Shown here one piece after another: positions 15,865 through 54,498 of a stretch of DNA of 64,000 nucleotides. Each line of letters starts with the position of its first letter. The stretch's first letter is position 1. The notes beneath the pieces are model-generated. The model worked only from the letters and a program-made list of their open reading frames with translations, ran no database searches and had not been told where the DNA came from. The position numbers and the translations under genes are program-made. Source of the DNA: Cyanobacteria bacterium SIG26 (lineage in GTDB: Bacteria > Cyanobacteriota > Vampirovibrionia > Gastranaerophilales > Gastranaerophilaceae); NCBI GenBank assembly GCA_015152555.1, contig SUTS01000011.1, positions 22,111 through 86,110 on the forward strand, written 5' to 3'.

Positions 15865-16057
15865 AACTACCTACCTTTCTTTTTTTTCTTTTCGGGGATA
15901 AACTTGACTTTTAGTATTCGTATTAAATCATTTTTTTTAGAGATTTTGCTATTAAGCTTTACAAATTCATTTTATTTGTTACAATAATTAACATAAGGGT
16001 AGGCGATAATCACCCACAGAAACGACAGTTTCTAACTAACATAAATAAGGGCGATTG

Positions 16058-16100
16058 GCACTCTGCCGAACGAGAACAATTAAGTATTGTTCGAGTGAGA
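16058..16100 (-). repeat. palindromic element P, copy 1
   Basis: On the minus strand: TCTCACTCGAACAATACTTA then ATTGTTC and TTCGGCAGAGT. It splits the 5' fragment of the tRNA-Val sequence. Confidence 0.8.
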
Positions 16101-16147
16101 GGGGTAGCGCACCTGTTAGAAACGACAGTTTCTGGCATATAGTGTAC

Positions 16148-16220
16148 GGGCGATTGGCGCAGTTGGTAGCGCACCACATCGACATTGTGGGGGTCACGTG
16201 TTCGAGTCACGTATCGCCCA
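16148..16220 (+). tRNA. tRNA-Val (GAC) with C at position 33
   Basis: Acceptor GGGCGAT/ATCGCCC, D-stem GCGC/GCGC, anticodon stem CCACA/TGTGG, loop TCGACAT with anticodon GAC (16181-16183), and T-arm ACGTG-TTCGAGT-CACGT; discriminator A. All stems pair perfectly. The base before the anticodon, nearly always U33, is C here. The CCA end is not encoded. A terminator follows at once. Confidence 0.93.
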
Positions 16221-16281
16221 AATAAGGAGGAAGTTAAAACTTCCTCTTTTTTTATACGTGACGAGAACACACAAGGCGTGA
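16205..16281 (+). repeat. 77-bp direct repeat, copy 1 (contains tRNA-Val 3' end)
   Basis: Identical to 16375-16451 except for one base (G at 16264, A at 16434). It starts inside the T-loop of tRNA-Val, so the last 16 bases of the tRNA plus the terminator and 34 further bases are duplicated 170 bp downstream. Confidence 0.92.
16227..16253 (+). terminator. intrinsic terminator after tRNA-Val
   Basis: GAGGAAGTT-AA-AACTTCCTC followed by seven T. An identical copy lies at 16397-16423 in the second direct repeat. Confidence 0.85.
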
Positions 16282-16374
16282 GCCTTGTCTTGTTCGAACG
16301 AGGAGCGAGCAGAGGGCGAAAGGCGGGGCGTTGAGACCCGACTGCAGACCCGTTTATTGCGAGCGACTCAAGAC

Positions 16375-16451
16375 AGTCACGTATCGCCCAAATAAGGAGG
16401 AAGTTAAAACTTCCTCTTTTTTTATACGTGACGAAAACACACAAGGCGTGA
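16375..16451 (+). repeat. 77-bp direct repeat, copy 2
   Basis: Second copy of the tRNA-Val 3' end, terminator and flank. The 93 bp between the copies is GC-rich and contains GGGCGAA (16314), which could pair with the repeated ATCGCCC, but no full tRNA can be folded. Confidence 0.9.
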
Positions 16452-16474
16452 ATATTGTTAATATTCATACATAA

Positions 16475-54454: not shown

Positions 54455-54498
54455 ACTCTCAGCAAAACAATACTTAATTGTTTTGCTTCGGCAGAGTC
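54455..54498 (+). repeat. palindromic element P, copy 2
   Basis: AGCAAAACAAT-ACTTA-ATTGTTTTGCT followed by TCGGCAGAGT. The reverse strand of 16058-16100 in the tRNA-Val locus matches it with the same loop and flanks but altered stem bases. Confidence 0.8.

Follow-up and report, generated by a model that had tools for sequence, protein, structure and literature searches.

Gene-less palindromic elements recur at tRNA genes of Gastranaerophilales with duplication of the host gene's own end

Families of small palindromic elements without genes recur at many tRNA genes of Gastranaerophilales; the host gene's own end is duplicated at these insertions, the insertions are polymorphic between species, and a covarying fold is kept. 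We hold it to be very probable that these are mobile palindromic elements whose arrival goes with duplication of half a gene. Taken as a whole, the data are probably best explained by gene-less palindromic mini-elements that have tRNA loops as targets and are moved in trans, and a mechanism that is trans-acting and uses a DNA hairpin has about an even chance of being correct. A more tentative proposal, which we would sooner doubt than assert, is a bacterial system of gene-less single-stranded DNA (ssDNA) hairpins that would recognize the universal T-loop of almost any tRNA gene (or its D-loop, in a second form) and build the half-gene duplication of its target during insertion, the tRNA being spared.

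The window (the whole 64,000-nucleotide stretch of DNA analyzed) comes from Cyanobacteria bacterium SIG26, whose assembly comprises 1.86 Mb in 21 contigs; its nearest relatives by rplA are Melainabacteria / Gastranaerophilales metagenome-assembled genomes (MAGs), mostly from the gut, with 90-98% identity. An intact tRNA-Val(gac) lies in the window between two gene-less insertions, a 5' hairpin of 43 bp and a 3' palindromic body of ~113 bp (Table 1). The tRNA is recognized by ARAGORN and by Rfam (62.5 bits against a gathering score of 29), and the Rfam search returned no known RNA family other than tRNA. Position 33 is U in nearly all tRNAs; here it is C (anticodon loop TCGACAT), and across relatives it is C in seven and U in six.

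The split 5' copy with its 43-bp insert was already recognized in a first-pass annotation of this DNA, which described it as a copy of the tRNA 5' half. The partial copy is real but comprises only ~11 + 11 nt of tRNA, GGGCGATTGGC before the insert and GGTAGCGCACC (16103-16113) after it. Downstream, the reported 77-bp direct repeat containing the tRNA 3' end and terminator was confirmed with one mismatch and 93 bp separating its copies; the alignment extends to 84 bp at 95%. The repeat begins immediately 3' of the T-loop GTTCGA, and a terminator is present at each copy of the tRNA-Val 3' end. The 3' body joins the T-loop of the partial 3' copy between tRNA positions 58 and 59. The T-arm strand in the second copy of the duplicated end (D) is the pairing partner of the body's inverted T-arm, so that in the DNA fold (z = -2.8) the whole body is one closed hairpin. 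Because a promoter-like site precedes everything and each 3'-end copy has a terminator, the pre-tRNA probably starts near 15992, 5' of the 5' units. The outermost of these seems to be a decayed further unit that shares the 16-nt hairpin AGAAACGACAGTTTCT.

Table 1. Features of the tRNA-Val locus, in window coordinates
Feature	Position	Strand	Basis
Promoter-like TTTACA-16-TACAAT	15958..15985	+	Consensus scan only; upstream of all units
Apparent decayed outer 5' unit: degenerate tRNA 5' end and hairpin AGAAACGACAGTTTCT, core5 missing	about 16001..16048	+	Repeat 16018-16033 / 16118-16133
Copy of first 11 nt of tRNA-Val (GGGCGATTGGC)	16049..16059	+	Sequence comparison
core5 hairpin (43-bp insert) at D-loop position of partial copy	16060..16102	+	>20 related genomic copies
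Remainder of 5' unit: D-arm bases GGTAGCGCACC, hairpin AGAAACGACAGTTTCT (16118-16133), new leader	16103..16147	+	
tRNA-Val(gac), intact; T-loop GTTCGA at 16200-16205	16148..16220	+	ARAGORN, Rfam
D, upstream copy: tRNA 3' end from position 59, trailer, terminator, inverted T-arm start	16206..16262	+	Terminator; 57 bp 100% identical to downstream copy
Inverted T-arm copy (ATACGTGACGAGAACAC), TC -> GA	16254..16270	+	Inverted repeat, 88% over 17 nt
3' element body: hairpin, second GTTCGA (16292-16297), palindromic core3 (16298-16375), terminal CAAGACA	16263..16375	+	R1 match 123 bits; covariation; DNA fold
D, downstream copy, continuing into start of truncated further unit	16376..16452	+	Repeat of 16206-16282, one mismatch

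Units of two types were found. The 3' type runs from the intact tRNA through D (position 59 to the 3' end, trailer and terminator), an inverted T-arm copy in which TC becomes GA and which sometimes includes the acceptor, a hairpin, a second GTTCGA, the palindromic core and CAAGACA to D again. The 5' type consists of the leader with the tRNA's first 11 nt, then core5 at the D-loop, some bases of the D-arm and often another hairpin, followed by leader and intact tRNA; in 19 cases core5 is preceded by the start of the tRNA that follows. Its join varies, lying at the border of D-arm and anticodon arm at Ile and in the D-loop at Thr, and the two Leu(gag) cases continue with the tRNA 5' end in inverted form, the mirror of the inverted T-arm in the 3' type. 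The length of the duplication is not fixed (14-46 bp in the 5' type; about 48-85 bp up to the body in the 3' type, where at some loci likeness remains in the tRNA end only), and some D-arm and T-arm bases within units look inherited from an earlier unit. The units contain no genes and leave no room beside the tRNA for gene cargo or a tyrosine recombinase. Other cargo hairpins fill the 3'-type shell at Lys(ctt) and Arg(cct), and at Lys(ttt) core3 is inverted. In the window's genome, different or inverted cargo separates the copies at other tRNA genes with the 3' duplication (L034, L036, L050 and L029), so more than one insert family uses these sites.

Used as a query against its own genome, the 491-bp locus gave 29 matches. 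The body between the 77-bp copies recurs 3' of tRNA-Tyr, Arg(acg), Arg(tct), Asn (two genes) and tmRNA, and at the tRNA cases the duplicated sequence is the respective tRNA's own end. The 43-bp core5 is also a dispersed hairpin, some of its copies lying in 5' fragments of tRNA-Leu(gag) and, within three tandem 132-bp units, of tRNA-Met. One copy, at 54497 of the window (minus strand), is nested in another dispersed repeat (CCCTGGATGG..GGGGTGATGGGG) that is not next to any tRNA. Independently of any model of the body, 14 of the 36 tRNA/tmRNA genes of this genome have a copy of their own 3' end downstream (a 15th listed match, Asp, was left out as an artefact of a 4-nt query), and 4 of the 36 have a copy of their own 5' end upstream. 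These duplications exceed chance, since middle segments of the 36 genes, used as controls, gave no downstream copies and a single upstream one, which is a real element at Ile, and no duplicated tRNA ends were found at 14 genes of two sister genomes that lack matches to the body.

For wider searches, a covariance model of the 3' body (R1) was built from 12 bodies. Copies per genome range from 0 to 25 among 25 genomes of the genus, and weaker matches occur in 9 of 15 genomes that represent other families of the order; G007 and G010 are examples with zero copies. In a set of 98 genomes from the phylum, R1 was found in 32 of 39 from the same family and in 0 of 59 outside it. Within Gastranaerophilales the element family has a patchy distribution, and among the genomes searched none outside the order had it. 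Scored on locus sequences rather than coordinate lists, 74 of 93 inspected matches are in sense orientation and follow a tRNA or tmRNA, over 20 kinds being represented; this share is biased upward by the tRNA-adjacent training copies. The exact GTTCRA/own-3'-end junction (the slash marking the join) is present in 45 of the inspected matches, and in ~17 more it is offset by a few nucleotides or has GTTCAA-like variants.

Matches in other families are often away from tRNAs, and copies at such places lack the half-gene duplication. Judging by translations, these sites include a prepilin-like gene, the interval between rpmI and rplT, the end of a methyltransferase gene and the inside of other palindromic repeats. 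In L181, L182 and L175, core3 lies at the end of an apparent rpmI, at the C terminus of an apparent cytosine methyltransferase gene and in the 5' part of a prepilin-like gene, and it lengthens or alters the reading frames. Orphan units were seen in L267, L280 and L183, where the right flank is a tRNA 3' end with terminator and no tRNA gene was found in the stretch. Six IMG/VR viral contigs (L314-L319) contain core3 palindromes in or between phage genes, as identified from translations, and in two of these cases the palindrome is nested in another palindromic repeat. Phages may therefore carry the core3 family between hosts; core5 in its tRNA-Val context was not found in the viral contigs searched.

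The bodies are far more alike between loci than the duplicated ends are. The Tyr body is 95% identical to that of Arg(acg) and 86% identical to the window's Val body, whereas D matches its own partner (Val 100%, Asn1 99%, Arg 90%, Tyr 80%) and across loci falls near background. The body has therefore reached tRNA genes that are unrelated, and each target supplied the duplicated end, which did not travel with the body. The orthologous tRNA-Val locus has no unit in L068, the 3' unit alone in L059, L062 and L063, the 5' unit alone in L066, L070 and L071, and both units in L061, L064, L072, L076, L093 and the window; on a tree of 14 taxa this corresponds to at least 4 changes in the 5' state and at least 3 in the 3' state. 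By script comparison, L061 is the sequence of its close relative L059 with exactly 105 extra bp, which end in a 16-bp direct repeat; the two agree at 125 of 128 flanking bases, and the difference fits gain or precise loss equally. Orthologous sites both empty and filled, as expected of miniature mobile elements moved in trans, are thus present; a limited search found no autonomous partner with the same ends. The first-pass annotation had offered two readings of the locus, and the one that saw a site of repeated small insertions is borne out by the dispersed families to which both inserts belong, by the tandem units and by this polymorphism between species.

Among 79 distinct body copies, 95.8% of cells are paired and 23 of 26 pairs change on both sides. 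Double changes number 403, against 107 after shuffling and no more than 69 in slid controls; covariation so far above both means that the fold is real. Tandem G.A mismatches lie between conserved helices of the body. G.T pairs make up 2.7% of standard pairs in the bodies and 8.2% in tRNA stems of the same genome (p = 6e-9, calculated with kinship among copies ignored), and in L071 one hairpin tip is inverted relative to its flanks. Strong covariation with few G.T pairs suggests DNA hairpins, a reading that the inverted tip also favors.

In the mechanism that we propose, the 3' element (core3 family) would join the T-loop exactly between positions 58 and 59 (GTTCGA/RTCC) and the 5' element (core5 family) would do so chiefly in the D-loop. 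Every insertion would bring a tandem duplication of the adjoining half-gene, either the 5' end with leader or the 3' end with terminator, so that one copy is interrupted and one complete tRNA is left. We infer that the element moves as a single-stranded DNA hairpin that becomes joined to the loop of the tRNA; copying of the strand would create both the duplication and the inverted tRNA-arm copy, with catalysis supplied in trans by a host or helper enzyme, and selection would have removed insertions that lost the tRNA. Against this explanation, no enzyme was found, no movement was observed, and the proposal does not say how insertion is coupled to duplication. The variable 3' duplication, the arm bases that look inherited, the training bias of R1, the ambiguity of L059/L061 and the copies away from tRNAs that lack the duplication also weigh against it.

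Among the tyrosine recombinases, reverse transcriptases and Y1/RAYT genes of the relatives examined, no mobilizer was found. A dedicated integrase was rejected, copy number not being tracked (12 copies in G012 and 11 in G021, each with two tyrosine recombinases), and a short integrase 3.5 kb from tRNA-Arg(tct) in L187 shows no link to the element. Reverse transcriptases were set aside, with none in G000, G009, G012, G016 and G022, all of which have 12 or more copies. Y1 genes occur in 17 of 40 relatives and correlate weakly with copy number (rho 0.36, p 0.02, uncorrected). None was found in G002, G009, G015 and G022, which have 12-19 copies, and 19 of 20 Y1 loci lack a nearby R1 match, the match at the remaining one being weak. 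Several of the RAYT genes (L205-L220) are flanked by their own GTAGGTTGGGC..GCCCAAC hairpins; these form a separate, ordinary REP system, and RAYT was rejected as well. The mobilizer is possibly an enzyme since lost, or one acting from core3-carrying phages. In L174 (2122-4297), core3 lies directly 5' of a 694-aa ORF resembling a Mu-type transposase, which is followed by an AAA-type ORF.

Of the rival explanations, we give most weight to slippage and template switching at palindromes during host replication, an intact tRNA being selected for and no dedicated enzyme involved, and even this is unlikely. It would account for the inverted copies of target arms, the inverted tip in L071, the tandem units and the failure of any enzyme to track copy number, but unrelated tRNA genes hold 95%-identical bodies and over 20 tRNA kinds share one T-loop junction, which calls for a transfer step with a choice of target. 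An att-site scar was the other reading of the first-pass annotation: a tyrosine integrase would have placed an island or prophage in the T-loop, and the element would later have left or shrunk with two att copies staying behind. The T-loop position and a repeated tRNA 3' end that starts within the tRNA gene are typical of such sites, and mycobacteriophage Ms6 has its attB in a tRNA T-loop. Ms6, however, requires an identical 26-base core (PMC1762012), and here one body is found at more than 20 tRNA/tmRNA kinds, each with that gene's 3' end; bodies up to 95% identical are flanked by the ends of different genes, at odds with an element-borne attP containing a fixed tRNA end. The body of ~113 bp has no gene within it, genomes with 11-12 copies may have only two tyrosine recombinases, and a mirror 5' type exists in the D-loop. 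None of the loci inspected showed an integrase-bearing element between its copies. We regard a scar as very unlikely.

An RNA element copied through its transcript, by reverse transcription or by RNA joined to tRNA, would suit the strongly conserved fold, the tRNA targets and a duplicated part that extends past the terminator; the scarcity of G.T pairs, a 3' body that lies beyond the terminator, and high-copy genomes devoid of reverse transcriptase make it highly improbable. Movement of the hairpins by RAYT (a Y1 transposase), as for REPs, draws on the weak correlation with copy number, but the genomes with many copies and no Y1 gene, the Y1 loci without R1 matches and the distinct hairpins of several RAYT genes leave it very unlikely. 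Assembly artefact deserves mention in that most genomes here are short-read MAGs, in which repeats of 77-170 bp can be mis-assembled; the same architecture appears in many independent MAGs, at many tRNAs and with diverged copies, and also in a 3-contig genome (G035, L166), and the probability of an artefact is very small.

If gene-less palindromic mini-elements with tRNA-loop targets are confirmed, ~40% of the tRNA genes of one bacterial genome would have been invaded and rescued by half-gene duplication, a rescue route not described in the literature searched. They would show that an element can strike essential single-copy genes without death of the host, explain the tRNA fragments on which annotation can go wrong (PMC9897764 raises this problem), and point to an enzyme or repair activity with tRNA-loop specificity. 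Should the ssDNA-hairpin reading be true, the system would be a counterpart, in logic and not in kinship, of the eukaryotic retrotransposons that target tRNA genes.

Palindromic mini-elements are a kind already known; the tRNA-loop target is unusual, and the half-gene duplication is unexplained. The retrotransposons of yeast and Dictyostelium insert beside tRNA genes using reverse transcriptase and integrase; they share with the present elements the tRNA gene as a safe target, whereas the latter are joined within the loop itself, with neither gene present. Tycheposons are kilobase elements with cargo and recombinases; association with tRNA genes and partial tRNA copies are common to both, but the elements described here are gene-less. 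Rickettsia palindromic elements and the small dispersed repeats of cyanobacteria are, like these, small palindromes dispersed over the genome, and are tolerated in genes and structured regions; they are not known to show tRNA-end duplication or a fixed T-loop junction, both of which are found here. Searches for tRNA-loop-targeting palindromes, Gastranaerophilales repeats and partial tRNAs did not find the arrangement described in the open-access literature. REP/REPIN-RAYT systems (PMC3116915) are similarly small, gene-less, palindromic, present in many copies and probably moved in trans, but in the present case there is no link to a RAYT gene, the target is a tRNA loop and half a gene is duplicated. 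Integrative elements with a T-loop attB, such as Ms6 (PMC1762012), share the T-loop junction, the second tRNA 3' end and the whole tRNA; the elements described here differ from them in having neither genes nor integrase, in occurring at over 20 kinds of tRNA, each time with the end of the gene that was hit, in including the terminator in the duplication, and in possessing a mirror 5' type.
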